A stretch of 64,000 nt of DNA. Source: Owenia fusiformis (taxonomy: Eukaryota; Annelida; Polychaeta; Sabellida; Oweniidae). The notes below the pieces were generated by a model that saw nothing but the letters and a program-made list of their open reading frames with translations, ran no database searches and was not told where the DNA came from. Shown here in pieces: positions 1 to 64,000 of this stretch. Positions within the stretch are counted from its first letter, which is position 1. Every line of letters begins with the position of its first letter. Both the position numbers and the translations under genes were made by a program. The stretch is taken from contig CAIIXF020000009.1 in NCBI GenBank assembly GCA_903813345.2, positions 3,472,001 to 3,536,000 of the forward strand. The letters are read 5' to 3'.

Positions 1-656
1 CGTTCTTACAGTCCTGCAAAAAGTCGTAATACGCGCTAAATCTGGCTGTGGTCGGGAAATATGTCAAAAATAATTAGCTACTTCGTTCATAAACAGTCTC
101 CAATAATTGAATCATTTCAAAATTCTAAAATCACCTTCCTTCCCGTCTGAGAACGTTCTTGAAGTTCGTAAATAGACCTTAGAAAGTTGCAGCTACGTTC
201 ATTCCGTTCGCACACAATTTAAAACAAATTTTGAAGAACGCAGTGGCAACTTGTTTGGTGCGAAAGCTATATTTTTGCTAACTCGTACATACGCAGTCTT
301 TAATCATACGCTCTTAATCAGTTTAAACCCGTTTACAATTAGTTATACCTCGTTCTCAATACGTCCTCAGACAGTTCAACTCGTTGTAAAAACGTCCCTA
401 TTAGGATTAAAGTACGACGGTTCCGTTCGCAGTACGTCCAGCTCGTCGTTAGTGCGTTGTCAATTGTTCTAATTGTAGAACGTGGCGACCGCGAGAACAT
501 TTTGAGCATGTTTTAAGTTCTAGAGGACCTACCCGTTCGAGTGCGTTCGATGGAGTTTGCAATCGAGACCCCAAACGGGTCTAAGTACGAATCCGTTCGT
601 ACACAGTTGAAGCGTTTTCGAAAACGTAGTGAGAACTATAGTTTGGTGTGATAGTA
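1..656 (+). mobile_element. CCCCTATCACACC-type DNA element, left end cut by window
   Basis: Matches 29974-30619. The right end reads AACTATAGTTTGGTGTGATAG at 630-650. The arms are full of ACGTTC and GTTCGT words. The short frame at 251-472 is part of the repeat and not a gene. Confidence 0.7.
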
Positions 657-981
657 GGGTAACAAGTTCATAAGCAATCTTCGATACATTGTCCTGAATC
701 AATTTAAACCCTATTTGCCAGACAGTTCAACTCATTCTAAAAACGTTCCTAGAAACCCTACTATCACCCCAAACTAGTTCTCACTACGTTCTCGAAAACG
801 GGTTTCAACTGTGTACGAACGGACTGGACGTACTTAGAACCGCTTGGGGTCTATTTACAAACTTCATCGAACGTACTCGAACGAGTAGGTCCTCTAGAAC
901 TTAGAACATGCTCAAAATGTTCTCGTGGTCGTCACGTTCTACAATTATAACGAGTGACAACGTACTAACGACGAGCTGCAC

Positions 982-3900
982 CACTGTGCAAAATGTGCGG
1001 TATCTCTCGTTTTATTTCAAGAGATTTGGACAAATAGTTTGTATATATCTCTAGAATCCCCCAAAATATAGTTAGATATCATGTATCTGATACGGACAAA
1101 TTTGCGTATCGAACCAGTTCTACTTAACTATTTGATGGTATGCCACAGAATAGGTCCCACATTATACCCGTGGTAATCAGGAGATTTGCTAACTATATTA
1201 TACATCTTCTATCTATACTCTTAAAACACTGACTATACTTTACTATTCATACAACTATCGGACATGAAGAACAAGAGATACGCTGCCTATTCTGTGCTAA
1301 AAACAGCAGATATCAGCTTATATCAGGAGATACTCTCATATCAGACTTCCCAAAACAGGAGATACGGTAACTATACGAAATGACGTCATCAAGTCTCATT
1401 ATTTGCAACGCTAATTAGGTAACATCACTTATCTGGCTTATTAACAATTACTCCGGTAGTTAAGTCATTAAATAAACAAATAGGGAGAATCTGAATCATA
1501 TTCTTTATCTCTTGTTTATCAATAAAGTTTAATGTTAATAAAATAAACAACTGTAATGTTAGCACCTAGGTTTTAAGTAACGTACAGCATTCTTCGGTAC
1601 ATACTGTGCTGTTAATAATAATTTATTATTCAATAATTAATCCGTATGTTAGGGTTAATAGATAATCTCTACAGCTGATGACTCTTAGTTCCACAAAAAT
1701 AATTTGCAAAATAAGTTTTTTCATATATATTTGATTGTATGATGTCCCTCATGTTATGTTTAACATTGTGTTAAATTTTTGATTCAATCAATTAAATAAT
1801 TGTAAAGTTAATTTTGAATTTTTAATCAATTGGTTTTCCTCACATTTTTATTCCATTGTTTCTCTGTCACATTAAGTTTATAACAAACATCATTTAAATC
1901 CCCCTCTAACACAGGTACAAACAACCATTCATTTTGCCAACCAAAACATCAGTCATGACACAGAACTGCTAAATATTCAATAAACACATTGTGCATTTTA
2001 TACAGACCCGTTCCTAAGGACCCCCCTCCCCGTGGCCAACAATTCTTTCAAAATCATGTAGTTTTCACCATTCACATACATGTATTGACATTCCAGAGCA
2101 ATACAATAAGTCAAACTTTAATCCCTAATTATTCAATTTCTATGATTTGAGTTTTGTTCACACTGATAGATAATCTGTTTGTTAGAGTTAATGGATTAAT
2201 TTCTACAGCCGATGGTTCTAATTTCAACCGAAAAATAATTTGCAAATTAAGTTTTTTATAATTTTTTGATTGTATAATGTCCCTTATGTTATGATTAACA
2301 TTGTGTTAAAATTTGGATTTAATTGATTGACTCAACAGAAAGTTAATTTTTAATGTCAATGGGTTTCGTCACATTTTACTCCATTGGGTTTCCTGATTTC
2401 CTCACAATTTAACTCAATTGTTTCTCTGTCAAAATCCTACATAGTTTTACCAATCTGGGCACAGTGATTTTGGGCCAAAATTATCGATTGTGAGCCATTG
2501 GTATGTTTTGAAAATTGCTCCTCTGGGCTAAAACTTATTATGAGCCTGTAATATATTGGATGTATTGCTCCGATTTCTTCTGACAAATCTCTGATAATAA
2601 ATGAGAAACATGCATTAAGTTTGCATGATACAAGTGGTGTTAAGCCATGCTTAAACAAAATTAAAACTTGAATTCTCTCACATTTTACAATTTATTCTTT
2701 CTGTTATCAATGTAATATCTGAGATATAAACCAGGGATATAAACAACAGATTAGTCCATGATATAATACATTTGTTTCTACTACAATTGGACCATTTCTT
2801 TTTATTACAGCTAGTTTTATTAACCTTTCTTTGTTTTCCATTTCCAAATATAGTATATATTCAAAAGGTGCGAGATTCGGTATGTTAAGATGTTTGATAA
2901 TGAAAATAAAGAAGCGGGTACATTTTACATTAATTCCTAATGTTTCATCTGACAAAGCGATGATTACACTTTGAGCAAATTGGAGCATGGTAGAACAAAC
3001 TGATTTAAATAACATATTAACATACAGTACATGTATGTCAGAGCAATATGATAAGTAAAACTTTAATCCCCAATTATTCAATTTCTTTAATATGAGTTTC
3101 GTTAACACTGATCACTAATCCATTTGTTAGTGGTAATGGATTAATTTCCTACAGCCAACAGTTCTAAGTTCCACAAAAATAATTTGAAAACTAAGTTTTT
3201 CATAATTATTTGATTGCATAATGTCCCTAATGTTATGATTAAAATTGTGTTAAAATTTGGATTTAATTGATTGACTCAACGGAAAGCTAATTTTTAGACA
3301 TTTTTACTCCATTGTTTCTCTGCCACATTAAGTTTACAACAAACAACATTTAAGGCCCCCCTCTTACACAGGCACAAACAACCACCTGTATTCACTTTGC
3401 AAACCACAAAAATAGTCTTGACACAGAACTGCTCAAATTTTAGCTATATACATTACGCATTTTAAACAGGCCCGTACCTAACAAGTAACGATTCCCTCCC
3501 CTTGGCAAACAATTCTTTCAAAATCATGCAGACTTTCACCATTCACATACATGTATTGATGTCAGAGCAATAGAAGTAATACTTTAATCCCTAAGTTATT
3601 TTCAATTTCTATGAAATGAGTTTTGTTCACTGATAACTAATCCGTTTGTTAGAGTTAATGGATTAATATCTAGAGCCGTTTGTTCTAATTTCAACAAAAA
3701 GTAATAATTTGCAAATTAAGTTTTTCATATTTATTTGCTTGTATATTGTTCCTCATTCTATGATTAACAATGTGTTAACATTTGGATTGAATCGATTAAC
3801 TCATTGGAAAGTTAATTTTTTGATTTTTAATTGATGACTTTTCTTAACTTTCTTTAACTTTAACTTTAAATATAACTAAATAATGTATATAAAGTGAATC

Positions 3901-4359
3901 TATCAGTTTTATTTTATTTGTTTAATTACTTAACGCTGACAGTGCATTGCCAATCATTAATAAGCCAGATAAGTTAAAGAAATAAGAAACGATGACGTCA
4001 TTTCGTATAGTTAGCGTATCTCCTGTTTTTAGAGCTCTGATTTAATAGTATATCCTGAAATAGGCCAGAAGAAGCTGTTTTCCATAGAATCGGCGGGTAT
4101 GTCTGGTTCTATTGGTCCAATAGAGTGGTAGGCAAACTACATGTATTTGTTAGCCTAGATATATAACACAGCCTATATTAGCTCATATTTCGTAGAGTTG
4201 AAAATAGTACTAACTATAGTAGTTGTCCGCCAAATCTCTTGGTATAGGTTGTGTCTCTACAACACGGGAGATACGGGAGATATTTCACACTATGACAGTT
4301 GATATTAGAGCATAGTTAACAGGAGATGCTATTACTATATAGCCTTTTTGGCACAGTGC
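982..4359. mobile_element. 3.4-kb element with CACTGTGC ends and 22-bp flanking direct repeat
   Basis: Ends are CACTGTGCAAAA (982) and the inverted CACTGTGCCAAAA (4359). It is flanked by 22-bp direct repeats at 960-981 and 4360-4381 that match at 21 positions, while other copies of the host repeat carry that motif once. A 39-bp inverted repeat with one mismatch sits at 1352-1390 and 3991-4029. Inside are about four imperfect direct repeats starting near 1640, 2175, 3110 and 3625. No coding capacity is visible, so it is non-autonomous. Confidence 0.6.
1640..3850. repeat. Imperfect ~520-bp tandem repeats inside the 3.4-kb element
   Basis: Phrases such as GTTAGRGTTAATGGATTAAT, AATAATTTGCAAA and CATTCACATACATGTATTGA recur with starts near 1640, 2175, 3110 and 3625. 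The second unit carries about 400 extra bases (2437-3108), whose minus-strand frames look non-coding. Confidence 0.65.
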
Positions 4360-5514: not shown

Positions 5515-5634
5515 CGTGTCGTCCAGGTTAGTGTCTGCAATATCTTTCATTGCCTTCCACATGTTGCTAAAAACGTCATTTAATCTCACCCACATTGGAC
5601 TGCCCTCTGTCCACTTGGTCATGGTGAGAATATT
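5515..5634 (-). CDS. Gene A exon 8 (lobe 2 linker helix, start of EF loop 2)
   Basis: 120 nt, phase 0 at both ends, acceptor TTTCTGCAG, donor GTTAGC. It encodes NILTMTKWTEGSPMW to DTNLDDT, the counterpart of exon 3. It is separated from exon 7 by about 7.4 kb of intron holding nested transposons. The following exon 9 is not in the window for this gene. Confidence 0.72.
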
Positions 5635-8600
5635 CTGCAGAAATGAAATCTTACATCATTTATTTTGACTCATTGATAGTCACGTAATTAACCGCGTATG
5701 TCTCTTGTATTAGGGATCTTGAAGCTTTTCGGATTCTGAAAGTGAGCTTTACCGGGAAAGTGAGAGTCAAATTGCAGGGGTCATATCAATAGTTCAGTAG
5801 GTGTAATTGATAAATCAATAGTGTCAAATCTAAAACACAAATCGTCCCATTATTTCCACATTGTTATAACTCACTTTTTAAGGTTTTGAGTTAAGTATAC
5901 TATCTTTCTCAATTTTTCGCGAGGAATTCATTTCTGAGGTCCATTTCAATGGATCTTATCTCCTTTTGGAGATAACCAGTGCCACATTGTTATAAGTGCA
6001 AAATGAGGACAACGAAATTAGGCCCAACTTGTCATATCCGTTTGGGTAGGCATCAGAGCCAATCAGATACATAATTTTGATCATGCGACTAATAATAATG
6101 TGGACGAAATGTGGACGATCTGTTATGCCTGGGTCACATAGCCGCCGGGCGCCGGCCGATGAGTAGTCATCGGCCGATTTCTAAATCGACCGGGCGCCGG
6201 TGACTTTTCACCGATGTCTTGATCTAATCGTGAGTATGGTCACATTAGTACAGGCATCGTACGGCGCCCGCAATCAATTGAATCTGAAAGACATCGCACG
6301 GGTATCGCAAGGCTATCGGCCGATGACCGTACGGGACCCGCTAGGACATCGGTCGATTTACAGGCCTCTAGATTTATACTTAATCCCTGTATGACCCAGT
6401 ATGACTGTTCCACATGGCGTGAATGCAACATTTGAAAACGAAATACTTTGATAAACAGGACTTCCAGGATAATAATGTTTTCATGCAATAAAAATCAGAA
6501 AAAGAAGATCCTCTTTTGAGTAAATAGGTTCAATATTTAGAAAAAATGTTGACATGGGGTCCCTATTCATCATTTTTCGAATTGTTCGATTGATATTTTT
6601 ATCATCATGGGTACTTCAATTGAAAGAAAACATATTGTTTTAATAAAAACACTCTATTTGTGCCCAGAAGGTACTCATGGTGAAAGATATGACCGTCTAA
6701 AATCACTTGCCATACTGGACGTGGTCTTTTCATCAAAGTGCACCCTGATCTTAATTCACTTTTAGATCTTTCATATAAAAAAATACTATGTCTACCTGTC
6801 CATCCGATGCTATTAGCAAAATTCCCTATTTCTCCATCTTTCTTTCGTCTGTCCTTGTAAAGAGAATTAGTTTGGTCATAAAAATATGGCTTCAAAGAAA
6901 TTGGCATATTTCTTCTGTTTCAAGTGGAGTACCCGCTTCCCTATAGACACATCTAAATCTTCATTATCCACCAGCTCAGTAGCATTGTTATTGTCTTTTT
7001 GCACCTGTCTTCCCAAGGCCTTCCTCATATATGGCCCATTGGCCTTATCCCCTCTATCCTTAGCCTTTGACATATTACGTTGTAATTGAGACGTAATTAA
7101 TCGTAGTAAAATTGTGACCCTTGAAATTACTGTACTCACAAAAACATTCCGAAGGTTTTTAAAATAAATGATTTGTAATGGTATATGCATGAGTGAATAT
7201 ACGCATAAAAATGTAACACTCTATTCAATGTGTATGACAGACATACACGATTAATGTCAATATAAGAACGACTAGATCAACCCACCCACCCAGCCATTCA
7301 AATGTGTGCCATTGTTTTATATACAGTAAGCTTAATCGTTCCATTTATGTTTTATAAAAACCTCTGACAGTGTGTAGTAATTATAATTCCTTTCATTATT
7401 TTTAAAACCTTTATATCACTTTATAAGTAATCATTATTAAGATTTATCCAACATCAGCACGCAAAATCCAAAGATGACCGTGCGATGCCACCGGGCGCCG
7501 TAAGATAATCGTACGATGATCGGGCGGGACACGGCCGGGTAGGTACCGATGAGTTTGGTTGAGAAAAAATCGCCAAGACATCGGCAACTTTTATCTCCGC
7601 GATAAAACTCTGCCAGCGCCCGTACGATGTCTAAAAATCGGCCGATGAGTGGCGATCATCGCCCGGCGCCCGTACGATGCCCGGGCTCGCCGGCCGATTT
7701 TGAACAAAATACTCATCGGCCGGGCGCCGCAGTGAAAATCGGAGCCTATGTGACCAAGGCATTACTAGTATACTTTGCAGGTAATTAACAAAGGAGATCA
7801 TAAATCATGACACCATACATGGAGTAGAAACAAAAGAAAGCAGATTTGACAATTATTTGTCACAAAAAATGTTCATTCAGTGAACATAGTCAATTACTGA
7901 CCCTGTTATAGCCTTTTTACCTTTGTCATGTAAAGATCTGGTGGATTTATCCAAAATATTTACAATTTTCGCACCTAAGTTGTGTTGTTATGGCGACCAC
8001 TTGACCAATCATGATCAAACTTGTCATAGCAACTAATCAAATATAGATACATAATCCCTAGAAATATAATGTGACTGAAGGTATATAACAGAAATTATTG
8101 ATGATTATCATAGTACCGACACATAAAAGTAGCAAGGGAGGTATAAATGGCAACAATTCGCAGATGCTGAAAAACTAGACCCTATTATTTTCAAAATCAA
8201 TGAGAAATGATATATTTCTCATTATCAACATAATTAGAAAGATGCAATCCTGTTAGCAAAAACATAGACCGAGCTCATCCAGTACCTGTCAGTCAAAATG
8301 GAACACAGGTCATATTCTTTATAATTAGATGGGTAGAATAATGGTACCATGACCAGAATATGAGACCATAACAAAATGGAAGTGAATAAAAATTCAGTTT
8401 TCAGGGTTATTTTGATATTTCAAAAACAAGAAACAATAAAAAATATGTGTTTTATTTAAGAAATATCGACCGAAGAGCAGGGCTACTAGTTTCGAATACA
8501 CCCCGTAGGTCTCGGCACAAACGTTTTCTGTACCCCGAACGACCGAAAGGATGACCTACTCTGAGGTCTATAATACGATTCGAACATGAAAACTCACCAG

Positions 8601-11600
8601 AATATTGCAAAATCGTCAATTTCGATGTTCATTCCCACTTTTTCATTTCTACATCCGGTTGAGCGTTTGGCTGTTCCAATTTGTTTACTTACCTCCTGAC
8701 CCCAACTTAAGTTTCTATTGACATTTCGGCCTATTTTATTGCTTTCACGCATCTCTACTACATTGATAATTATTGAAATTACTAAGATTACAGTTTACAA
8801 ATGCTCCGACAGAAAATTTTGGCTCCGGACAATTCTCCTTGCCATTTTGAATTTTGCAGACGAGGGGGGATGCGAAAAGAACGGAATGGCCTAAACTGAC
8901 CAATGAGTGCACTGAACGAAACACTTAGTACAGAGCCGGGATTTGATCTCGAATATAACCCAGCTGAAGCATTGACTTTGTTTACAGTTTATAGAAGCCG
9001 TAAATACAGTCATGTTCGAATTATTGTTAATCAGTGATTTTTGTTCTGCAAGGCCTACATATACACATGATTACCTATACTAAAAATTAAGTTTTTAAAA
9101 AGTACAACTCAAAAGTTATGAAGACCCAAACTTCAACCTCTGATTTCTCAATATCAGCAAAAATGCAATTGTAACAATGTGGATATAATGGGACGAAATG
9201 TAAAATCTTTAGAGAATAACAACATTCAAGCATAGCATATCAACACAACGGTACAGAATTCCGTGAACTTTGCCAGATGTTGTCTTGGGTTGCGATATTG
9301 TGTACCTAATCCTATAACCATTAAAACCTTGATGTGACCACGCTCTACATAACTCCGCCTTCTCCCAATTTTCTATTTACATTTTAACGTAAGTTTTGGG
9401 GTTTTCTCCGTATTTCAGAACTTTTATAGTACCCAAGGAGTGGTTATCGTCATGGATAATACTGTATCCGCTAAAAGTCGACAGTCTCCAGGGAATACTA
9501 AAGGTCCTATTACCACTATTACTTGGACACGCATACAATAGTTATTTATAGAGTAAAAAAGTGCTTGGGGTACATTTTCTGGCCTGTTAATTTCATGGGA
9601 TGTTCCATATTTTTGAGCCGATGGGAAATGGGAGATCATTCCTCATATTTTTCCACTCTTCAAGAGATGGCCAGCGTACACTGGTTCCCATACTATCGGC
9701 CAAACATCATTTATGAAACAGTTGCAATGTCAACATCGAGCATCAAGTATAGAGGCTGACAAGGATAAGAACTCAGTCAGATGTGAGAAGTCCATTGTGA
9801 GGTGACAGCTAGGCTATAGGGAGATATGAAAACTTTATTGACAAAATAATGCCTGAATATTACAACAATTATGAACTGAATTATCTTCCTCTGAGAGTGA
9901 CTAATATCCAGGACTGGAAGATAGTATGTGAAAATTCAGCAATGCATAGTTCTCAATATACCGTGCACGCAGATAAATTCTGAAAGAATATTGTGAAATA
10001 AATGGGTTTGTTTCTAAACCCTTATGACACGACCCCTGAAATGTAACTTACACGTTCCTAGTAAGTCTCACTTTCAGATTCCAAATAGCTTCAAGATCCT
10101 TACACTACATTGAAGGAAGTTGTGTTAGGACCATTTGAAGGGTACATATTGTATGGTATGATAATTCACATTGCACATCGCATCGTGTGCCTATCGTGTA
10201 TATATGAATGCCGCGATTAGAAAAAATGGTGTCTGTAAATTACCAATATTTTCCTAACGTAATATTACATCGTGGCTAAATAGTGGCTTTACCCGCGCTT
10301 TGTGATTTGTTCATAACTTTGACATTGGCTATCGCGGCGTTGTTGAAATCACTGCAGTCTGCAAATTAACTCTGTATTTTTTGCAACTGCGCCATATTTC
10401 ATACTCACTGATATCAAATAACTTCATTATCTATCTGTTCAACACCTGTTTACCATTTCTTCTGGGAGAATGAAAGTTACTATATGTATTCCAGGCCCGT
10501 AGCAAGGGGGATGCACCCTCTCCCCCGGCCAGACATTCGTTATTTATTAGCTTATTGAGCTTATTTTTATTTTTGCCGTATGGCCCATTCAGTTATATAG
10601 AAACTCCCTTATTGCTTTAAATATTAATCACTGTTCAGTTGGATGAGAATGTCACATGAACATTCAAGACATGTCATATATTCTTATTCAGATCATCAAA
10701 GGACTGAAGATTCAAGTGAAAAATCCAGTAATATCTGTCTAATCTTAACAATTCTGAGACCAGCATGAAGTGTTCTGATTTTTGCATTCATATTTTAAGG
10801 TTTTATGAACAATTTATAAGTCAATGGAAAATAACAAATTCGTGACAGAGAAAAATTGTTCACATTGAGCAGTGTTTGGAGTAGAGGTGTCCAGATATAC
10901 AGGTTTCGCTGTATATTACAAATTGATTTTGATATTCAGTCAGCTGTGCGGTTCCAGTGGCATTCATATTGGACAGGTATTATAACTGTATCTTTTGTTC
11001 ATTGCATATATTATTATACATTATTTTTGTTAATAAAGTTATTACATTTCATGTCATGTTGTTTTATTTAATATAAAAGTGTTTTTAGGTAGTTTTTGGC
11101 CATAACGAACAGACTTACTCATTTTGAATAGCTTATATATATAAACATGATAAAGGCAAAATAGTAGGAAATATTATGATCAAGCAAATAATCGTCTACT
11201 CCTTACAAACATATTCCAATAATAAACACAGATAAAATTAATTTTAAATTGTAATAGTATGTTAGTGTATGGAGTTTGAAGTGGGAGGGGGATACAATTA
11301 CCAGTCTGCTGATTGATGACTTAATAACTTAATATAAAATATATCATAGCTTTTATCAGGTGGTACTTATGTCTGACTAACGTTCTTTAAATCATCTCGT
11401 CTCGCGGTTTTAAAAAGGGGGGGGGTTGCCAAGAAGGTGGGGGCTGTTTGACGGTTTTGGCAATAACATCATGCGAAAAGTGCTAAGAATGGTGAAAAAT
11501 TGCATGATTTTAACGAATATTTGGCAAGGGGGAGGGGGGTGAGGCCCTCTGGCTACGGCCCTGGAATGCATTTAGGAATTTCCTTCTCCCAGAAGAAATG

Positions 11601-14600
11601 GTATACAGGTATTACATCAATCATTCTGGTATTTTGTAGACACGTTATTGAAAGATGACAGTGTACACCGTGTACTACCATTTTGAGGTCAGTTTGACTT
11701 TATAATTCCCAGCACTCAAAAATCTGTATTTCTCAAAGATATCCTCTCTAGAGGCATCACTGTAATCCAAAATTACAATTCCGCGGGTCAAGTCCGAAGT
11801 CTTTCGAAAAAAGTTGAATTTGTTGTGCCACGAATTTTCATTCGTTATTTATTCACAGTTAAATCCCACTTGGGTAGCAACACAATAGAATTTGCTGTGG
11901 GTTTTGTTTAAGAATGTATGGTTTTATCAAAAGGAAAATGCATTATTTTTCTATTGTTTTTAAAGAATGTACACTTGGCAAGCTATCAAAAACAAGTGAG
12001 ACATAAATGACCATTGACAGTTTTTGATAGTTTTCATTCCCTAAAAAACAATATATATATGTAAAAATACATGTACCCTTCTCTTGTTACTGTGTATTCT
12101 TTAGAATAAAACAATTTATCAATTTTTGTTGCTATCTACATCATTGATCTTATCTTACTTACAAATATTCTGCTGTATTCAAATTCAATGTTCTGGACTG
12201 GACAGTCACCTGTAGTGCACTGAAGCTAGACTAATTATAGCCCACTCAGTCACTTACATCAACTCACACTCATGAGGTCAATGCAACCAACTCTTTTTGT
12301 TGTTACAATTAATTGGCTATATAACAACAAATTTTAACCAATAAGAGCCAGGGTCATTGTTAGCCTGGTTGAAGTTTGCAAAATTCACAGTTTGAATAGT
12401 CAATACAAAAGAAATCACATTTTCCCGGATTAAAGACCTTTTAACTGTAATATAATAGACCATTTACCTGTAATAAGAATGTGTGTGATTTAAGTAAGAT
12501 AAAGCATTCGAATTCGATTTGATAAGAAATAATAACCTCAGGCCTTCGGCCTTCGGTGTATTATTTCTTATAAAATCTCATTCTTATGCTTTATCCAGTA
12601 CATAATCATATTTTCATCCCGCACTGAATGAATAACAAGGGCCGCGTTGTGCAAAGTGAATTAAATAAATAAAGTGCGCAGAAATCGATCTGACTTGGCC
12701 GCAGTGTGCATCACGCAGTGTGCAACACTCCCATGTTAAAACTCCATTGAATTTTAAATTCTGCGGTACATCCCCTTTCGCTTTCCGTACATTTTCACAA
12801 ATAATCATTTTACCATTATCTGAATTTTTGTGGATTGAACTGCAAAAATAGAGACAATTGAATAAATAGAAAAATGTTCCAATTTCTATTGGCCCATCCT
12901 GTACATTACTCGGAAACCGAACTGCAAAATAATACAGGGTGGTCAAAAAAGTGGGACAATTATTAAAATGTAAAACGTATGCAAATATATTACAAGAATA
13001 TTTGTGAAATCTGTGGAACTAACCTTCACATGTATTTCGAAATCGTTCTTACTAACCACTCCATTTTTGTCTTGATCTGAAAATAACCTAAACTGAAATC
13101 AAAATTACACAAAAAAACATAAAACGTCCAATAATTGTATATCCATTTGACTTAAGATTTACAAGAATAAGAATAAAATTATCAATGGCTTACCAAACCA
13201 GGTATAAAACTGATACTTGTTTTTCTTCTCCCAGATATCGGTGCGTTTAAATTCGGCTCTGGAAACTAATTGTTTGACTATCATTTCTCCAAAAGTATTC
13301 CCAATAGTTTCCATATCCCTAGATACAGTGAATCCAAGTATCATCTCCCTGAAAAGAGCTATGTCCAAAACCCGCTGTCCATTCTAAAAAGACAAATCAT
13401 GTCTGTATACGGTTGTCACATCTGGTAGCAATACATTGAAATTGTGAATGTTGAAATTGCAATATTAAGTGACAGGGTGGCACAAAAATGCAACGCGCAT
13501 AATAACGTATTTGCCTGTATGATAACTGATTGTTCTTTAGCACAGTGGAACTGATAAATTTAGACTCCATTGACCAACTCCACAATACGTTTTAGATGAC
13601 TTGCTCAACTAGATGCATTTCATTAGGGTTACAATATGTGCGCACACTCTTTTAAGTCAATGGTATGACTTCCGGATATGAAGGATCCGTAGCACACTAT
13701 AGCGCAGCAACATTTAAATCAATATTTATGAAGGTGTATATGTCTTGATTCTTTCAAAATACAATTTGCTGAGAAAACGTCAGGCTTTCTGGTCGAAAAC
13801 TGTCTTTCATCACAAGGGGCAAAACACGTAAATATTTTGATTCGAACCTTTATACATTTTATAATCACAGACCGTTATTCTAAGCATACGTACACAAATA
13901 TATTATCATAATGTAAAAAATATACTATTTTTTTACTGTAGATTTCGGTGTTTAACTAGTGTAATTACACAAGTGTGTTTTGTAGATTTTGTTTGATTTT
14001 TTCAAATATGAGCCAAGCCTATTCAACATAATTGTGTGGAATATTCAGGTTATTTATGATTGGGAACATATTCGATTTATTACCATTTAAAAAATTTAAA
14101 TACCAGAATTTTTCCATATAATCAAAATGAGGTCTAACAACAAATTATTGTTCATGTTTTATAAAACAAAATACAATAACAAATAGATAAGATCCATGTC
14201 TAATTAAATATTACAGAGGTATTGGAATGTTCATATATTCCAAGGCGCGTCTAATAATTAAATAGAATCATATGCAATCGAACGCCTTACAATGTTTCCT
14301 CGACATTACTTGCGGCTATCATCAAGTTTTCTGATTGTTGTATCTTCTTTGACGACCTTACCGCTGGATACAATCAAATTTAGGAAGATAATGATAACGA
14401 TTTTTCTCAATTATTCATGAATTCGACCAAGTCTTGATGGTTGTTTTATAAGCAACTGAGCTATATCTAACTACGAGAAATAGAAATTTAACCGTAGTAC
14501 CAATTAGTCAAGGAAGAGCAACATGCCCTCCTTTATTGATAATGTTTACCGCTGAATAAAAGTCCATACTTCAAAACGTATTGGGACCCATTTTATGAAA

Positions 14601-16539: not shown

Positions 16540-16772
16540 GTTGAAAAGTATGTGCAGCTAAGAGGAATATATGGGCGTAATGCTCTCATGATTATTTTGA
16601 ATCGGTAATGATAATGTCTAGAGTAAAATTTGCGTTTAGTTTCATATATGCAGGAAGGTCAAAATAACATTCCTATATTCTATATTTCATTCACTATATT
16701 TTTAATGATTTAAAAATAGGTTAGTTTGGCATATTTCAATTAAAAGATGACGACATACAATAATTGTATAGG

Positions 16773-17005: not shown

Positions 17006-17144
17006 GGTTAGGTTTTATTTATTTGCAATGAGATTTACACTAGTTAAAATACTAGGAAGGCCTAGGTAAAACATTACATTATTGGCCTCCCTTATAAAAA
17101 ATTGCAAATCAACATATATTTACATCGGTTCTCAAAGTTTTCTA

Positions 17145-19655: not shown

Positions 19656-19659
19656 GGTC

Positions 19660-53355: not shown

Positions 53356-53589
53356 GTTGAAAAGTATGTGCAGCTAAGAGGAATGTATGGGCGTAATGCT
53401 CTTATGATTATTTTGAATCGGTAATGATATTGTCTAGAGAAAAATTTGCGTTTAGTTTCATATATGCAGGAAGGTCAAAATAACATTCCTATATTCTATA
53501 TTTCATTCACTATATTTTTTAATGATTTAAAAATAGGTTAGTTTGGCATATTTCAATTAAAAGGTGACGACATACAATAATTGTATAGG

Positions 53590-53822
53590 CCCCCTATCAC
53601 ACCAAACTAGTTCTTACCCGTTCTTTCCTACGAAAACGTCGTAAAACGGGCTCAATCTGGCTGTGGTCGGGAAATATGTCTAAAATAATTAGCTACCTCG
53701 TTCATAAACAGTCTTCAATACGTCCATCTCATTCGCAGTTCGTTCAGGTCGCACCACGTTGGTGTGCAACGTCGTATAACGCGCCCCTTAGTCTAGAAGG
53801 TCATCATGACCTGATTTTTTAA
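53590..53822 (+). mobile_element. Truncated CCCCTATCACACC element upstream of gene B
   Basis: Counterpart of 16,773-17,005, same truncation point, so the insertion predates the unit duplication. Confidence 0.7.
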
Positions 53823-53954
53823 GGTTAGGTTTTATTTATTTGCAATAAGATGTTACACTAGTTAAAATACTAGGAAGGCCTAGGTAAAACATTACATTAT
53901 TGCCCTGCCTTATAAAGAATTGCAAATCAACATATATTTACATCAGTTCTCAAA

Positions 53955-54236
53955 GTTTTCTAGACATTTCACCCCCTGGACGTTTCACCCCTAGACTGTT
54001 CACCCCTTAAACGTTTCACCCCCTGGACATTTCACCCCTTAGACATTTCACCCCCTGGTCATTTCTACCCCTGGACGTTTCACCCCTAGACATTTCATCC
54101 CTTAGACATTTCACCCCCTGGACACCTCACCCCCTAGACGTTTCACCCCTTAGCCATTTCACCCCTTGACATTTCATCCCTTAGACGTTTCACCCCTTAG
54201 ACATTTCACCCCTTAGACGTTTCACCCCCGGCCCTA
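53955..54236 (+). repeat. Minisatellite, unit about 16-17 bp, longer copy
   Basis: About 17 units of GACATTTCACCCCTTA type, against about six in unit 1. It runs into 54,237-55,183, which has no match in unit 1's equivalent place. Confidence 0.85.
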
Positions 54237-54439
54237 GACATTTTAGCTTCAATGTTTTACTCCTACATATTTCATTCAAGTATTCCTCTTTGTTAGAACT
54301 GAATACCTAAGTGTAAATGGCATATATTATAGTACATATTTCCTATCGACACATTTTGCTCAGTAACTTAAGTGAATTTAAGTTGGATGACTTCATGTAA
54401 TATGGTTTAGCGTATAATATGGTTTTTTCAAAAAAATAA

Positions 54440-54590
54440 ATTTTCAAAGTTGATTAGCAATTTTCAATCCAACTAAATGTACTTTTACATGTAGATTTAA
54501 AGTATGACATCACTTTGACTGAATTGTGAATATTTAATGGCGTAAAACAAGATCATTTCTACTCGCATCTAGTCAGTATTCACTTGTTTT
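54440..54590 (-). repeat. Inverted, diverged copy of 23,640-23,800 / 59,330-59,480
   Basis: GATGCGAGTAGAAATGATCT, TTCAGTCAAAGTGATGTCAT and TACATGTAAAAGTACA (read on the minus strand) match those places, so they belong to one dispersed family. Confidence 0.55.
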
Positions 54591-54847
54591 TTCATATTCA
54601 GTTTCCAGGGTTTTGAAGTGAGGTCCAGTCAGAAAATCTGCAACCCAAAATCTTACACAATGCTAATTAATTTCACATCTAATTAATTCCATATCTAATT
54701 GTTTTCCATAAAACTAATGCTTTTATATCAGTATAGATACATTTGTGCACACATCAAAAACATGTTACCTCATATACATACAAGAAGAAAAAACGATTGG
54801 ATTAATTTTCTAAATCTAAAAATAACTGGACTTTGGAAATTGAACAA

Positions 54848-55080
54848 GTTCAATTTCAGACTGATGGAAGGACGGACTGGTTGGACTTGGACTGGACCTT
54901 GACTGGATTTGAACCTTGACTGGATTGAACCTGGGCTGGTCTTGGACTGGACTTAGACTATACTTGGACCTGTACTGGCCTTGGAACTGGACTGGAATTG
55001 ACCTGAACCTGGACTTTGACTGGACTGGAACCTGATTTGGACTAAGACCTGGACTTGGACCTGTAAATGGACTGGACAGG
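54848..55080 (+). repeat. Minisatellite of GGACTGGACTTGGAC words
   Basis: Imperfect 6-, 11- and 17-bp units of TGGACT, TTGGACTGGACC type. Found only in unit 2. Confidence 0.8.
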
Positions 55081-55183
55081 TATTTTTCGATTTTTTCTTC
55101 ACTTCTCTTGACTTTCTATAAGGCTATCATCAGATCGATTTTTCTCGAAATTTCAAAATGCCATAACTTTAGATAGATAGCGA

Positions 55184-55660
55184 TGGGAGTCTCTGGAGCA
55201 GAGAAGACAACAACAACGGCTCACCATGCTCTTTAAAATCAACAATAGCCTAGTTGGAATTCCCAAGGACCAATATCTTGAACCCCCCTCCCACAATAGA
55301 CCCAGACGATTACAAGTAACTAACAGCCAGGCCTTTGTCCGCCGCAGATACAACAAATATGTCACTTTGCAGTCTTTCTTCCCAAATACAATCAGGGAAT
55401 GGAACTCACTTCCAGAATCAATAGTGACAGCGGGAACATTCGAAGGCTTTAAAACCACGCTTGGTTCTTACTACCAAAACCCCATTCCTTAACTCTTACT
55501 GTTGTGTAACTGTTTTTAAACCGTTTTTAACTTTACCTTTTACTCTAACACTGTTTTTATCTTTTACTATGCATACTTACCCGCGATGTAGTAATCAGTA
55601 AATGATTGAATCGTGTATTATTATTATGATGATGATGATGATGATGAAACGGCCCTCATA
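55184..55660 (+). pseudogene. LINE 3' fragment, unit 2
   Basis: Begins at ATGGGAGTCTCTGGAGCAGA, equal to 19,195 in unit 1. It encodes QRRQQQRLTMLFKINNSLVG and, after a frameshift by one extra C, FFPNTIREWNSLPESIV to the stop at 55,490. Ends in the same TGATGA tail. About 1.95 kb of LINE 5' sequence present in unit 1 is absent here. Confidence 0.85.
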
Positions 55661-57590
55661 ATGAAATAATAATTTGTTCCATGTTGAGATTTTCCTAATC
55701 TGTCAATCATCGCGCACTTTGATGCTCCATTTTATCGAGGGGTAGTGTTTCACATTTTCTGTGATTTTTCAGAGTGGTCAAAAATAATATTGAAAGTGGG
55801 GCAAAACGGCCCGTGGGTGATGCAAAACAGCCCACCATTAAAGCTTGGGTTTTAACACAAAGTTTAATTAAATACATTTATCTTAAACGTTTAGTGATTA
55901 GACAGATAAATTATTCTAAGCCGTAACCATAATAGTCATATATGTCATAATTTGGGCCTGCTTTTGCATTATTTTGCAGTTTGTTCAGGTTATTTAAGAA
56001 ACAATAATTGTCACTGCAATCGAACAGCTTGTGTTATTCATATTGTATTATTGTATTTTCGAGTGAATCCAACATGCTGGACAGCTCATGTTACAATTGT
56101 AATTTGTAATTTTGATTTCACTGTACATATTATCTGATTGGTCAAGTATTGAACGTAATGCTCAACTCAGGTATTTCCACTCAAGTATAAATGTTATTGA
56201 AATCTCTTGTTCCACATCATTTCAACAACTGGTGATCGTAGTTTGAAAAGGGTCTAAACAAACCCGAACACAGCAGCCCTGTGAGGTACTTTTGTGTTGA
56301 ATACTAGATGCTAGTTCCTAGTTCCTAGTGTGCTTATACAGAGACTGAATGAGTGGCGTTCATGCTTTTGATATCTAGTGACGTTCTTAGTGTGACCTAG
56401 AAGATATATATCTGAGACAATGCTGTTATTCAGCAATGTATATTATTCAGCAAAATGGGACAACGCCGTTATTCAGCAATGTGTATTATTCAGCGAAGTG
56501 GGACTCTCACAGTACATGCAGTGACAACATGCCATCAACATAGAGTGGTGATGTTATAGTGGCACTCAGTATTCTATATGACACTGGTATTTCGATAGAG
56601 TAAAATATGTACAATTAAGGTTTTAAACCTAAAATAGAGACTCTTATCCATGAGTGGATTAAAATCATATCACGAGTAAATCATAGGATGTTCTTTTTAT
56701 TCCATAGTTAAAGTCATCATCAGAATCATCGGAAATTAAGTGATTTAATTGGAATTTTCCAAACGATCCGGCGATGTTGACACTTAGCCTCGTTTTGAGT
56801 CTGAAGTAGCAAAAATCCATAAACCATCGCATACGGAGCCGTATGTCATGGCTAAAAAACCGTATGCTATGGTTTAGTGAAAATTTGTCAAAAATATCAT
56901 ATTTTACCACTGATTACAAAAATACCGTTTTTATTTTCACATGTTGTCCTATGAATATCATGCTAACTATGGAATAAATACAGATATTCAACTCCACAGA
57001 ATTCAATATTTGTATAGTATTATTTGAATTAGGTTATTGTACGGTAGAGAAATGAAAATGTTGGTGATCAAACCTAGGCTGAAAACAATCGATGTTATAT
57101 TTTATTGTATTATATGAATTCTTGTACGGTAGAGAAATGAAAATGTTGGTGACCAAACTTAGGTTGAAAATGATGAGTGAAAAATAACAAGAGTTGTGTT
57201 ATTTTCCACATTATTGCGTCTCGAATCCCTTACCACTTCAGAGGTTACTGGCAAATTACATAATGTAGAAAAATGTGTCAGATGGGGTACTAAACAATGG
57301 ATTTTGAGTGCTGGATTGGATTAATATTTTTATTATCCTGATTACAACTCCAAAGAAATATATCTTATATTTAACGAAAATACTGTATTTATAATGTGAA
57401 TAAAGTCTTGCTCAAAGATATGTCGTCAACTATTTGCATACCTACTACATTTGGTATTTTTATTTCAAATGTGTAAATGCGTCTAGTCCCCTTACAATGA
57501 GCTTAAAATATCACAAAACCCTATAATTTGTTCAAGATTTTCAATATTACACTTTCTAATGAAGGGAAGGCATTTTCTATTTATCCATAA

Positions 57591-57792
57591 TTATCCGTTG
57601 TACATAACGGAAGCTATTCTATTTTCAATCAGACCTTCTTCACGATCGAAGAGACTTGGGCCGGTTGGTGGACCTCTGGTATAATCGTAGTTGATCTGTG
57701 TTGGATCATTAGGCCCATTGGCATCCCGAGCCATAACAAACAGATCAAAGAGGAAGTGAAGGAGGTTTTGCCAGATATATGGAAGGAGAAAG
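57591..57792 (-). CDS. Probable terminal exon 11 of gene C
   Basis: Counterpart of 21980-22181 with the same acceptor and stop codon. It has LLPYIW for LLYIW and REEGLI for RVEGLI. An AATAAA on the minus strand lies at 57459-57464. The upstream candidate microexon has a 2-bp deletion relative to unit 1, which is the reason to doubt that piece. Confidence 0.48.
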
Positions 57793-60700
57793 CTGAAAGG
57801 GTAACGCATTACTGGTTGATTTGGTTGTTCCTATAACATAATATAAATAGTTCATCTTTGGATGCATGAACATCGGCGATCAGTGTAATACCATCAACTG
57901 CTGTGACCTTTAGCCAACAAAGATGAGAGTTTGGTATTTTCCTATTTATATATGAAGTTAATGTGAATATGTAGGCATAACCACATAAACGGCAGTGTTT
58001 TCCCCGGGGAATTTTTTCACGACAATTATTGTTTTCGAATTTGACAAGCAAAACGATATAGTAATTTTTAATTCATGGATTCTACAACTATAATGTATTT
58101 CAACATTTCACCCGGGGCCTATTCGCGAGCAATACCCCTGGTAATACGAGTAATGGGTGGCATCATAACATATAACTGTCACTAAATTAGTAATTTATAT
58201 TTCAGGTGAAATCGAGGTTCGATCAAAGTATGAACACGCTAGACAGATCTCTCCACATCACTCCCAAAATGAAAAGAAACTCAATCAAAACGGATAAGCC
58301 TGTTAAGATGGCGAATATACAGAAACAGAAAAGCCAGAAAAGTATAACTGATGAGTCTAATCATATTGCCAAAAATCATAGTAACTCCACTGCCTAATGA
58401 GATTAATGATAATTCTCAACCGAATATTCCTGGAGGGACGGATAGTTCACCATCAAAGGAAGATATTTCAAACAAGTAAAATACGGAATTAAAATAACAA
58501 AACTAAACAAGTGGGGTATTAGAATATGTATTTTTTGTCTGGATGTCAACTTGTACATAAAACAAGAAGCATTAGCGTAATTATATGATTTTGGATATAA
58601 TGTTTATTACTTGTATATCAGTACTTCATATACAGTACTCCTTGATAGTTGATACTGGTACCAATTAGCAAATTATTAAACAAATACTGGATGATCAGGA
58701 GCTGGATATGGCAGAATGCCTATTCGAGAAAAAATAATGGGCGAGGCGGCAGCCGAGCCCAAAATTTTTTCGAGGATAAGTAGGTATTCTGGCCATATCC
58801 AGCTCCTGATCATCCAGTATTTGTTTTATTATGCACCTCCCAATCAAAGTTAAGTGGAGTACTTACTGGAGTACAGGCTTAAACTGTCGTTTAGTTGACA
58901 TTATTTTGACATTTATTTATTTTATCTTTCAAAACTCAGACGACTTCCGGCCAGTTTATTCGCTACACTGGGAGAAAATATTTCCCCCGGGAATTTAATT
59001 TTTATTTATTCGAGACATTCTTGCAGAATTATATGTAACTTTTGAATGATAAGGGTAACTGTGATTGATTAAGTGCATTTTTTTCTTCTTTTTTCCGCCA
59101 GTTTCAGATGTAAGCTTTAAGTAGTACTCCGGTTATTAAAAAAAAAACTCTGAAGTGGGAATGTTGCAAAAACATTGAAAAAAATATCCGACCCTTTTTC
59201 TCGAAAGAGTCAGATATTAAAAAAATATCCGGCAGTTTTCAGAAAAGAGCAGAGTATTGCCAAATTACAAGCAACTAAGAACCAATCAGATTTGAGTATT
59301 TTAATGAGGTGCATAATAATGTTAAATATCCCAGATGCGAGTAGAAATAATCTTGATTTACGTCATTTAAAATCCACAATTCAGTCAAACTGATGTCATA
59401 TTTGGAATCTACATGTAAAATTACACTTAGAAATGTGGTTTTGAAAATAGTTTATCAACTTCGAAAATCTAATTTTCTTAGAAAATATGACTTCTAGGTC
59501 GGGGAGATTCCCCATAGACCCCATGTTGTAAAACCACAAAAAGTGAAATATCTTCTCTTGTTTTGGGCAGATAATATTTTCTTTCACTGGATATATTTTA
59601 ATTTGTATAACTATCAGATACATAAGGGTAATATAAAAAGTGAACCACTAAAACTGATGCATATTCAAGTTTAAGGGAATTTTGTAATACCCTCCCATGT
59701 TAATTCCCCGAATCAGCCACCCGGTGGCGAAATTTGTAACTACCTACTCGCATCTGAGTAATTACAATGTGCAATGTACATACATGTATGCTAACAAGGC
59801 AGCTGAAAAGTTATGCATTTAAAAGCACAGTCCTCTAGACGACTGGACGTGTACATAAATTATATTATGTAGTTTTATAATAAAATATATATTTGCTTTT
59901 TATATGTATACTTGAATAAACAATAATATTGCTCTAATATTTATAACGTTTGACTCATGACTTATGTAAACTATGTCTGTATCAACTCACACACTTGTTT
60001 AAATACGGTACAATGTTTGATTTGCTTTAATATTAAACCAAGAAAAAATAACTCATAATAGAAAAAGCATTTCAAGTTGGAGATCATTAGACAGGATTTA
60101 AAAGATGGCGACACTTCTATAAAAATGAATGTATCATGTAATACAAACAATTTTGCCATCTTCCAATGACATTGATAAAAGCTTAAAATATGAAGCTTGA
60201 CAGATCAAAAATATTTTTGATAGTTTATTGTAAGCGTTGATGTGGTCCATTTGGTGTCAAATGAAAAATAAGGTTCTTATCAATACATTGGATATACACT
60301 CCCCTCCATAAGTTTGACAACCTAAGCTCCATCATTGAACTATGTGTTAAAGCCTCTTTACGTTTGAATTTGTATTTACTTAATCGGCGACAAAATAACG
60401 TTTAATATTGATGGAAAAGTAATCTGACTTTATTTCCAATACCTCCAATTTTTTTTTAAAACGGGTATACTTTTTGCCGATTTTTTTGTAACAAAAATTA
60501 TTTCATACAACTACTCTTTACAAAATCATTGACATGGCTTTTTACAATGCAACCCACCTGAAATTCTTTGTAAAGCTAGGAAATGGCCCAAAAGTGAATT
60601 TCGCGAGACAAAAATGGCGATCATTTTGAAAATAGGCAATATTTTGAACTAGGAGTCAAAAGGGAGTTTTTTGTATTGATGATTATCAAAAATAACTTAA

Positions 60701-63700
60701 AACGGGAATCCTATCGACAGCGGTTTGAACGCAAATGGTCCAAAAGTTGACTTCACAAGACAGATGGGCAAATCAATGTTAACTAAAATGGCTGAAAATA
60801 AAAAAAGGATAATTTTTTTGCTGATTTTTTGTAACAAATTTATTTCATATAACTACTCTTCACATTAATGTGGCTTTTACAATGCAGGACACCTGAATTT
60901 ATTTTTTAAAGCTAGGAATTAAATGGGTCAAAAGTGAATTTCGCGAGACAAAAATGGCGGCCATCTTGAAAATAGGCGAGCTTTTGAACCTGGGGTCACA
61001 ATAGGGGAGTTTTCTGTTTTGATGTTGAACAAAGATTACTTATAACGGGAATCCAGAGGCTTTAAACGTGCCACTATTGTTGGTCCAAAAGTGGATTTCG
61101 CAAGACAGATGGAGAAATCAATGTTAACTAAAATGGCTGAAAACAGAAAAAAAACGTAAATAATTATTGCTGATTTTTTTGTAATAAAATTATTTCATAC
61201 AAAACTACTCTTAACATTGACATGGATTTTGACAATGCAGGACACCTGAAATTATTTGTAAAGCTAGGAAATGGGTCAGAAATGAATATCACGAGACAAA
61301 AATAGCGGCAATCTTGAAAATAAGAGAGCCAGGAGTCATAGGAGAGTTTTCTGTATTGATGTTGAACAAAAATAACTAAACAAGGGAATCCTGTCGGAAA
61401 TCCTAGCGCACGCACGCACGCACGCACTGACAGACGGACAGACGGACAAGTGAGTGAGTGCAAGAGCTCACCATGTGAGCTAAAAACGTGAACAGGTGAT
61501 TAATTATTACGAAGATAGAAAGCAATGATCTAAACTAGCAAATAAAATGAAGTTATACAAAGTCATGTGTTAATACTTGTGATATAGGTATCGATTGGGA
61601 AGGATTAACTAGAAATCGACAACTCCACGGAGTAGCAAATCCCAACGAACACTATGTAAATCACGAATCTGCACAGTCACAATGTAATATTTACCATCTA
61701 CTCTTCCCTTCACTAAATAATTGAGATCATTGTAATATCTTATAACCATACTTAGCAATATCTCAATGAATGGTCAATTCCTGCTCCAGGCAGCCATATT
61801 GAATTTGAATTGAGGCATAAATCAGAAAAACGATACCATATTTGTTATCTACTCTAAGATTCCTTCAACTTGAGTATAATATAGCCATACTTCTAAGAGA
61901 TCAGTAAATCATTGCGAAATCCCACAAAGCTATACTTCAAAAGCATCTCAAAATTAGTGCAAATTTCTGTTTTCCCAAATTTCCGTTTTCATGGCCCCTG
62001 GAGGCCAAGGTGAAAAAAACGGAATACATGTGAATTATTTATATTTTGTGAATATACCACAAACATTTCAAATGATAATATTTATTACTTTGGTTTAAAA
62101 TGAAAAACATGAGATTTTTGCAAAATTTCCGCTAATTCTAGAGCGATGGGCATCTTAAAAAATGGTTGCGTAAAACTATTCACCAATAAACAAATTTCCA
62201 CCAAATATTGCGCAAATCTTTTGACTAGTATTCGAGTCATCTTCCGGACGGACGGACGGATGAACGGACTGACTGAGGGTCGAACTGACGGACGGAGGGC
62301 TTCACTATATCCATACCGAACTTCGTTCGTTGGGATAATTACGAATACATAGATCTTTACTGAATGCTGGATTGCAATTGTTTTCACTTCGTCAATCGGC
62401 AATCGTAAATCCTTCAAATTGTATTTTTTTAATTTAGACGCCGTTTAAGTACGAATTTTTGATAACACATTCAATTTAGATTGTAATATTGGTTACGCAA
62501 TAACAACGTCAAATGTGGACAATGGACATAACCTCTAAATGTATCTCTCTATTTCCCTATTAATAACTTCTTAAATCACAACGTTTACATCGATTCTTTA
62601 ACTGTCTCACTGGTGATCCACTCGATTACGCTGGTTACCGAAACGGCTCGTTTTGGTAACAAAATGTCGGAACGCGAAGGTACGATTTTTCTTTTTTCCT
62701 TATTTTACGCGTTGTTGGCAGAATTCCGACGACATTTTTATCACAAACGTGTATCAGTATCATATGTTTAAGAAAATGTACATATTTGCGAACAAATAGT
62801 TCATAATTCCTCACTTAAGTTACATAAAAGGTATTTCGAAAAACAGTTAAGATCTGCACTTTTTACCCAACCCGTTTATGTAACTAAAGTGAAGAATTAA
62901 ATCGACGATTCTGATGTCTTCTGAGCTATTTTTTCGCAAACATATACATTTTGTAAAACATATGATACTGATATACGTTTGTGGGAAAAAACGTCCTGGC
63001 AGAATACTACAACGCGTGAAATAAGGAAAAAAGAAAAATCGTACCTTCGACGTTCCGACATTTTGTTACCAAAACGAACCGTTTCGGTAACCGGCGTAAT
63101 CGAGCGGATCACCTGTGTGTCTGCTGTCGATTCGTAAATTAGTCTTGCTTCTCAGTACACATTCGTATAAACATATCTCCGAGGGAGTTCACATCATCAG
63201 ACATATTCATCTGTATGAACCATAAATGCCAAAGTTCCCGATCAAAAGTAATCCGTCCATCCTTAAAATATATTTTATGATATCGTAGTAAGATTGTTAA
63301 TTATTTGCCTTTGGGTCGGCTACTTTTACCCACTCTTTAGTATTTAAAAACATGGCTGAAATATTCACTCATCGAGTACATTGATAATAACCAGTACAGT
63401 TCTACTTGAATACTTTATCGTACAGCTATTTAATGGTATGTAATACAATACTTGAAATTGAAATTACGACTGACTTAATGAATGAACTTTTATCTTATGA
63501 ACGTACGTATGTTATATTCTTGAAATATTTCTCAGATCTTTCTTGTGGCAATTTTAAACATTTTCCGTAATATGTTACCCATTCCTCTTTCTCCACCCAT
63601 CCATCAGCTGTAATATAAGGATATACGTACAAATAACAATATAACAACAAGTAAAATGATACACAGACTATCATCGAAACCGAATATTTATGTGATAGTA

Positions 63701-63885
63701 AAAGCACATTATCAAAGCAGTGAACGCAAAATTCCGTTGCTGGAGAACTTACAATTTCCAAGTCTATCAAATACATCAAAGTAAACGTCCATGTAACGTA
63801 AGTACCATTGTGGGATTTGAAGGGTCTTAGTTTGAATCTGCCGGCACATTTTTTCCAAGGCATTTAGCCATTCGTCGATGGTAAC
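57591..63885 (-). CDS. Gene C: 3' end of a further upstream copy of the EF-hand gene
   Basis: Exons 9 (63753-63885), 10 (63507-63607) and probable 11 (57591-57792) of a third tandem copy whose exons 1-8 would lie right of the window. Exon 9 has the same length, phase and splice sites as in gene B. Exon 10 differs from gene B by S to L and K to N. The copy implies that the array continues beyond base 64,000. The gap to the start of gene B is about 4.2 kb and is filled with repeats. Confidence 0.65.
58682..58821. repeat. Hairpin with 28-bp perfect arms in unit 2
   Basis: ATACTGGATGATCAGGAGCT and onward (58682-58709) repeats inverted at 58794-58821. In unit 1 (about 23,075-23,150) only the left arm is present. 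Confidence 0.8.
60450..61390 (+). repeat. Three-copy ~350-bp tandem repeat, unit 2
   Basis: Counterpart of 26,120-27,055, followed by the same (GCAC)n run at about 61,407. Confidence 0.75.
62615..63115. mobile_element. Foldback MITE, unit 2 copy
   Basis: Counterpart of 28,136-28,652 with the same inverted arms and small changes. Intronic in gene C. Confidence 0.7.
63507..63607 (-). CDS. Gene C exon 10
   Basis: 101 nt, same altered loop as in gene B (DGWVEKEEW). It carries KCLKLPQ and YFKNITY where gene B has KCLKSPQ and YFKKITY. Confidence 0.68.
63753..63885 (-). CDS. Gene C exon 9
   Basis: 133 nt, matches gene B exon 9 base for base over nearly its whole length, with acceptor and GTAAGT donor conserved. 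The same MITE begins 22 bp upstream (63907). Confidence 0.74.
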
Positions 63886-63906
63886 CTTTTAAAAAGGAAT
63901 GCAGAC

Positions 63907-64000
63907 TAACACCCCAGTCACATTTGTCGCACGGAGGCCGTGCGTCGACCGCAGATCAATTAAATCATTGTATTTTTGCGGCGAGCGTAGGAAAACTACG
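63907..64000. mobile_element. TAACACCCCAGT MITE, start only
   Basis: Left 94 bp of the element seen at 29,435. The window ends inside it, at the place where unit 2 would give way to the next unit. Confidence 0.7.

Follow-up and report, generated by a model that had tools for sequence, protein, structure and literature searches.

We found that a stretch of DNA from the annelid Owenia fusiformis is located at one end of a tandem array comprising 11 genes whose proteins are built of fused calexcitin-type EF-hand domains. The stretch, called the window below, is 64,000 nucleotides long (contig C9, positions 3,472,001-3,536,000, plus strand, in a genome assembly of 498,259,871 bases in 525 contigs). 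Genes in the window encode two fused domains, and those at the far end of the array encode three. One gene, G2, is a mosaic: its 3' part sides with its neighbor G3 and its 5' end sides with its other neighbor, G1. As assembled, G2 also contains a nested duplication that has copied one of its exons. Taken together, we consider the following reading probable: the locus is a tandem array of calexcitin-type genes, the trio G1-G2-G3 originated by unequal crossing-over, insertions and the exon duplication came later, and the proteins have a calexcitin-like function. Coordinates are those of the window; negative values and values above 64,000 refer to neighboring sequence on C9. Forkhead matches in this assembly are on nine of the contigs C1-C12, which are probably the chromosomes (none was listed on C2, C7, or C12); there are tandem clusters on C8 and C10 and a 30-kb pair on C3. 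For Owenia, forkhead genes are reported from nine of 12 chromosomes, with foxQ2 in tandem on two of them and foxC near foxL1 (PMC9539403); the chromosome numbers used there differ from the contig numbers here.

The window contains parts of three tandem units

Comparison of the window with itself revealed long direct repeats:

1-792 and 30,002-30,752: direct repeat, 89% identity
5,064-5,842 and 31,108-31,886: direct repeat, 96% identity
12,789-17,249 and 50,109-54,082: direct repeat, 94-97% identity
19,195-29,528 and 55,183-64,000: direct repeat, 95-98% identity

The E-value was 0 for each pair. Therefore, these repeats are not due to chance. The offsets between repeated pieces were 26.0-39.8 kb overall, 34.3-37.3 kb for the long pieces, and 30.0 kb at the left edge. 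The first-pass annotation of the window had described two copies of a ~34-kb unit, split at 29.93 kb, each carrying a gene array, with landmarks recurring in the same order and orientation. The order and orientation were as described and the direct repeats are long, but the offsets do not fit a fixed unit length.

With 30 kb added on each side of the window, there are three homologous units: unit 1 from about -7.0 to 17.2 kb, unit 2 from 19.2 to 54.1 kb, and unit 3 from 55.2 to 72.4 kb. The natural borders fall between genes, near 17.2/19.2 kb and 54.1/55.2 kb; the split at 29.93 kb reflects only where the window was cut. There is one gene per unit instead of an array in each. The annotation was right that three successive gene copies are touched {G1 (exons 1-8), G2 (complete), and G3 (exons 9-11)} and in suggesting that the next unit begins at both edges. 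Exons 9-11 of G1 are outside the window on the left, and the repeat pattern runs on past both edges, with -71 to 981 matching 64,385-65,393.

Within unit limits that we set, ~40% of a unit could be aligned with another (11.8 of 29.6 kb for units 1 and 2, 14.5 of 35.5 kb for units 2 and 3, and 12.5 of 29.6 kb for units 1 and 3). The aligned pieces were 86-98% identical. Outside exons, substitutions amounted to 4.6% between units 1 and 2, 3.2% between units 2 and 3, and 5.7% between units 1 and 3. No tRNA was found in the window, and no Rfam family matched it at the gathering score.

Each unit contains one gene that encodes two fused domains

We detected the exons, which are on the minus strand, by comparing translations of the units with those of more distant copies to the right, and splice sites fixed their limits. 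The open reading frame listing of the window was uninformative because the exons are short. The genes, and the exons that join their two domains, are:

28,670-53,355, minus strand: gene G2, complete, two calexcitin-type domains (exon scan, splice sites, open frame)
5,515-16,539, minus strand: gene G1, exons 1-8 of 11 (exons 9-11 are left of the window, -93 to -841)
63,142-63,885, minus strand: gene G3, exons 9-11 of 11 (exons 1-8 follow beyond the right edge, as far as 72,180)
50,514-50,703, minus strand: G2 exon 6, 190 nt, in which the N domain ends and the C domain begins with its first helix
13,194-13,383, minus strand: G1 exon 6, fused like G2 exon 6

The two-domain genes consist of 11 exons whose phases are constant. 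The first calexcitin-type domain (N domain) is encoded by exons 1-6, and exons 7-11 complete the second (C domain). The coding sequences of G1 through G6 are 1,188-1,200 nt long and encode 396-400 amino acids; all six have a length divisible by three and contain no stop. G2 has these 11 exons and, in addition, exon 8 a second time; with a single copy of exon 8, it encodes 396 amino acids. The donor of N-domain exon 3 is GC in G1, G2, G3, G5, and G6 (at 15,752 and 52,566 in the window) and GT in G4 and G8-G11. Therefore, GC-AG introns must be accepted at this position.

The solved chains of calexcitin, juvenile hormone diol kinase, and sarcoplasmic calcium-binding proteins that match these domains have a single domain and 166-212 residues. 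This would be in keeping with two separate single-domain genes in each unit instead of one fused gene. However, exon 6, which is 190 nt in all 11 genes of the array, encodes both the last part of the N domain and the first helix of the C domain. There is no stop before the first helix of the second domain, and the exon ends on a donor that is in phase with the next exon (11 of 11 genes). We regard separate genes as highly improbable. The shared 190-nt exon also ruled out that the EF1-like exons near 16.1 and 13.1 kb belong to different genes or are alternative exons.

The proteins are built of calexcitin domains

We compared the domains to solved structures using phmmer. The N domain of G2 matched calexcitin with an E-value of 2.5e-15 over 6-187, and the C domain did so with 2.4e-16 over 20-190. 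Juvenile hormone diol kinase matched the same two domains with 3.6e-15 and 1.2e-16, and sarcoplasmic calcium-binding proteins ranked next. G4 matched calexcitin with 6.3e-18. The third domain of G11 matched juvenile hormone diol kinase with 1.3e-15 and calexcitin with 1.8e-12. Longer chains with six EF-hands (secretagogin, calbindin) gave weak matches only, at 8e-4 or above. Pfam EF-hand models scored above cut-off with the assembled proteins and weakly with loose exon pieces. NCBIfam gave no match.

Counted with one loop pattern, there are five regular EF loops in G1, G2, G3, G5, and G6, four in G4, and eight in G11. By domain, there are three in the N domain (two in G4), two in the C domain, and three in the third domain of G11, compared to three in the calexcitin piece from 2ccm. 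Shuffled G2 and G11 had 0.06 and 0.14 regular loops on average. None of the seven chains tested had a regular third loop in the C domain by this pattern.

Solved chains of the family have a single domain of about 180-210 residues; G1-G6 have two domains and G11 has three. Because the proteins have 396-400 amino acids with two domains or 591 with three, they are built of calexcitin domains but are not calexcitin in the strict sense.

The array contains 11 genes

An exon scan of 304 kb, plus an extension, identified 11 genes, all on the minus strand, over 276 kb (C9:3,471.2 to 3,747.3 kb). In one protein search of the genome, 25 of the 30 matches were on the minus strand of C9 in the array region. 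G1-G6 have two domains and G8-G11 have a third domain in front. The last exon of the third domain ends in phase 2, and in the next exon a single base precedes the ATG that begins the N domain; therefore, the third domain is spliced in frame. G11 was assembled in full (591 amino acids, 17 exons, in frame, no stop). For G8-G10, the N and C domains only were assembled in frame, and exons of the third domain were found.

G7 (180,374-171,074) has exons 1 and 2 of the third domain, N-domain exon 6, and the C domain. The exon scan did not find the exons between third-domain exon 2 and N-domain exon 6. The phases of these two exons would still fit each other. G7 is either a shortened gene or a pseudogene.

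No array exons were found in the 29 kb left of G1. To the right of G11, the 16.7 kb that were read gave one weak match only, to a domain-end exon (E-value 0.007, C9:3,763,200-3,763,265). Because the match, ~16 kb right of G11, is weak, the right end of the array is not firmly set. The match may be a more distant member of the array.

There are also relatives elsewhere. C4:23,537,576-23,545,020 contains a dispersed two-domain gene with introns, of which 10 exons were found in the stretch read. It is closest to G5 and G6, with 87-100% amino acid identity, by exon, to the best array exon. Since it has kept its introns, this copy appears to have moved as DNA, not RNA. A partial copy is on the plus strand at C9:873.6-876.4 kb, outside the array. 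Exons at C7:6,521,424-6,522,602 are closer to ordinary calexcitin and are possibly those of a single-domain relative.

G2 is a mosaic of G1 and G3

We counted three-way sites, that is, sites that join two of the three units, after dropping 47 inconsistent positions. Below 30.8 kb, 232 sites joined units 2 and 3, 76 joined units 1 and 2, and 79 joined units 1 and 3. At 52-53.6 kb, 91 sites joined units 1 and 2, and 12 sites joined each of the other pairs (2 and 3, 1 and 3). A Fisher test on the two main site classes gave 3e-31, a value for which the 52-kb bins were picked post hoc and in which neighboring sites are not independent. The exons behaved in the same way: N1-N4 favored G1 with G2 (14 to 2) and C4-C6 favored G2 with G3 (15 to 4). 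In the domain tree, the C domain of G2 grouped with that of G3 (support 93/84) and its N domain with that of G1 (82/69).

The switch of sides is between 36.6 and 50.0 kb, with no finer limit. This is the site of a large insertion. A switch at 30.75-31.1 kb, placed there from identities, was replaced by this interval from the site counts. The insertion and the spacers between units are:

36,612-49,769: ~13.2-kb insertion, unit 2 only (site empty in units 1 and 3)
17,250-19,194: spacer between units 1 and 2, with a fragment of a LINE-type reverse transcriptase at 18,260-18,871 (plus strand)
54,230-55,182: spacer between units 2 and 3, with flanks that match those of the unit 1-2 spacer

The pattern is what unequal crossing-over between G1-like and G3-like neighbors would leave. 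The trio would have come from these two neighbors by an exchange inside long introns. A single step would have created an extra gene that is at once a hybrid, its 5' end coming from G1 and its 3' part from G3. The match between the sequences flanking the two spacers, 89% and 100% next to the gap, supports this as well.

Several observations weigh against so simple a history. The bins from 50.5 to 52 kb were mixed (34 sites joined units 1 and 2, 50 joined units 2 and 3, and 26 joined units 1 and 3), and 31.0-36.6 kb leaned only weakly to unit 3 (30 versus 16 and 14). Exons N5, N6, C2, and C3 were undecided together (6 sites for units 1 and 2, 6 for units 2 and 3, and 8 for units 1 and 3). In addition, the two spacers are not alike in their central parts.

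It is possible that conversion added patches to G2. It could even account for the mosaic if G2 were an old third copy, one end of which came to resemble G1 and the other end G3 by later gene conversion. The patchy sites at 50.5-52 kb and the changes of identity along the unit are consistent with this. However, one crossing-over explains the extra gene and the switch of sides together, and a one-sided stretch as long as that from 21.5 to 30.8 kb exceeds the size expected of conversion tracts. We think it unlikely that conversion alone made the mosaic.

G2 could also be a product of the assembly, with two haplotypes of a G1-G3 pair joined end to end and no hybrid gene. Joining two haplotypes would give the same mosaic, and therefore this explanation is a serious one; the locus is a clear example of a pattern that would follow from an assembly artefact as well as from unequal crossing-over. 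At least one haplotig has been retained in the assembly: the unplaced contig C124 (589 kb) is colinear with C2 at 18.05-18.38 Mb. At 150, 300, and 450 kb, C124 matched C2 at 18.377, 18.220, and 18.055 Mb with 98%, 99-100%, and 98% identity. (At one of these points, copies of a repeat on C12 scored best, at 95% identity, and the colinear stretch of C2 was 99-100% identical.) Of the two other unplaced contigs searched, C40 had a single match of 98% but is repetitive, and C250 is a dispersed repeat and is uninformative about haplotigs. The stretches next to the spacer are 98.1-98.3% identical, near the allelic level. The protein search of the genome found no second copy of the locus on another contig, as expected if the two haplotypes were in tandem, and also if the other haplotype had been purged.

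In contrast, at the three points sampled on C124, a small sample of allelic divergence, the haplotig differs from C2 by 0-2%, compared to the 4.6% and 3.2% substitutions outside exons that separate unit 2 from units 1 and 3. G1 and G2 differ by 27 nonsynonymous changes, and the sequence around the window (124 kb) contains no N. Furthermore, joined haplotypes would remove G2 only, not the array. We judge an assembly product to be about as unlikely as conversion, and we favor unequal crossing-over as the origin of G2.

A nested duplication has copied exon 8 of G2

As assembled, G2 contains a 4.44-kb tandem duplication that was not in the first-pass annotation:

29,834-34,277: first copy of the nested tandem duplication (differs from the second by 12 substitutions and by two indels, of 11 and 2 bases)
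34,275-38,731: nested tandem duplication, second copy, adjoins the first
36,001-36,120, minus strand: G2 exon 8, the C domain's third exon, the copy in the gene model (120 nt, both ends in phase 0)
31,560-31,679, minus strand: G2 exon 8, second copy, same 40 residues and same splice sites

An ATG is common to the breakpoints. Exon 8 is the only exon of G2 that was copied; a microhomology-type event would have duplicated one frame-neutral exon. Because exon 8 is 120 nt long with phase 0 on both sides, the frame is kept with one or both copies. It is possible that the second copy is usable as an alternative or added exon.

In G8, at 209,383-209,068, the third exon of the extra domain is followed after 150 bases by a second, partial copy (209,115-209,068). 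This is the same type of exon as that duplicated in G2, which hints that this exon type duplicates more than once.

Mobile elements entered single copies

The 13.2-kb insertion has ATAT on both sides, and its edges are not exact. Its sequence from 38.8 to 45.6 kb is a dispersed repeat found on many contigs, with 79-99% identity among the matches listed, and 45,787-47,818 contains dense nested tandem repeats with units of ~29 to 238 bases. Two smaller insertions are present in one unit each:

6,123-7,766: 1.64-kb mobile element, unit 1 only, many copies elsewhere
20,991-21,357: 0.37-kb insertion, unit 2 (site empty in unit 3; family found genome-wide)

Copies of the 1.64-kb element are on each of C1-C12, mostly 91-99% identical among the matches listed, and one is inside the array. 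The mobile elements would have entered single copies after the trio formed.

These results bear on how the locus grew. The first-pass annotation had proposed a gene family growing by large tandem duplication, with introns diverging mainly by gain of transposons and by deletion. The three insertions (13.2 and 0.37 kb in unit 2, 1.64 kb in unit 1) confirm the gain in these cases, and 11 genes on the same strand over 276 kb agree with growth by tandem duplication. Copying of whole units is probably not the only process, however: there would also have been exchange between neighbors, to judge by the mosaic G2, and there is a small duplication within a gene.

History of the domains and constraint

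A tree of 27 domains placed the C domains in one group (support 91/94) and the N and third domains in another (97/98). The third domain falls among the N domains, in an order that is partly open. Calexcitin was the sole outgroup and has a long branch; therefore, the root of the tree is unsure. The simplest notion is that one domain became two and then three by copying of an N-type domain.

dS (synonymous divergence) and dN/dS (the ratio of nonsynonymous to synonymous divergence) were compared for all of the genes except G7. The trio is recent, with dS of 0.047 (G1-G2), 0.077 (G1-G3), and 0.080 (G2-G3), compared to 1.24-2.26 between the groups G1-3, G4, G5-6, and G8-11. dN/dS between these groups was 0.12-0.31; it was 0.33-0.35 for G8 versus G9-G11, and below 0.36 in every pair between older groups. 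Within the trio, dN/dS was 0.60 (G1-G2), 0.45 (G1-G3), and 0.28 (G2-G3). The values between the older groups support our reading of the locus. The value of 0.60 counts against it, as it indicates either weak constraint on G1 and G2 or fast recent change.

G9-G11 (216,817-275,306) are a second recent trio. The proteins of G10 and G11 are 99% identical (dS of 0.068), and that of G9 is 91-92% identical to them. dN/dS among these three genes was 0.40, 0.31, and 0.08.

We are evenly divided on whether the family is growing at three levels at this one locus: in the number of genes, in the number of domains (one, two, three), and in the number of exons. Tandem arrays, hybrid genes, and exon duplications are each of a known kind. 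Because two- and three-domain forms are present together, along with a mosaic gene and an exon duplication that is very young, the order in which domains and genes were gained can be read from this one locus.

Comparison with known proteins and hybrid genes

Members of the calexcitin family serve as calcium buffers or sensors. By kinship with calexcitin and the sarcoplasmic calcium-binding proteins, the array proteins would bind calcium inside the cell and act as buffers or sensors. Additional genes and domains would raise calcium-binding capacity, or permit specialization and a division of labor. A calexcitin-like protein of another annelid, Scp2 of Platynereis, is reported to be specific to foregut muscle (PMC9934868).

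Nearly the whole length of each domain of the array proteins aligns with calexcitin (2ccm, 4ndb-4ndd). By the one loop pattern used, the N domain has three regular EF loops (two in G4) and what looks like a degenerate fourth. However, calexcitin is one domain whereas two or three are fused here, and by the same pattern the C domain has two regular loops only in the seven chains tested. Juvenile hormone diol kinase and the sarcoplasmic calcium-binding proteins (6kth, 7pjd, 2sas, 7wbo) belong to the same single-chain EF-hand family (E-values of 1e-16 to 9e-5 by domain), but they too have a single domain. That is, the matching solved chains are single-domain, and the two- and three-domain forms are side by side at this locus. 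We did not meet a multi-domain calexcitin or an array of calexcitin genes in a search of the open-access literature; such proteins may well be annotated in protein databases.

Lepore-type globin genes are hybrid genes that arose by unequal crossing-over in a tandem family. G2 resembles them in that its 5' part would come from one neighbor and its 3' part from the other, with a change in copy number. It differs in that the extra copy, G2, sits between its presumed parents, and in that the intron where the exchange would have taken place now contains a 13-kb insertion.

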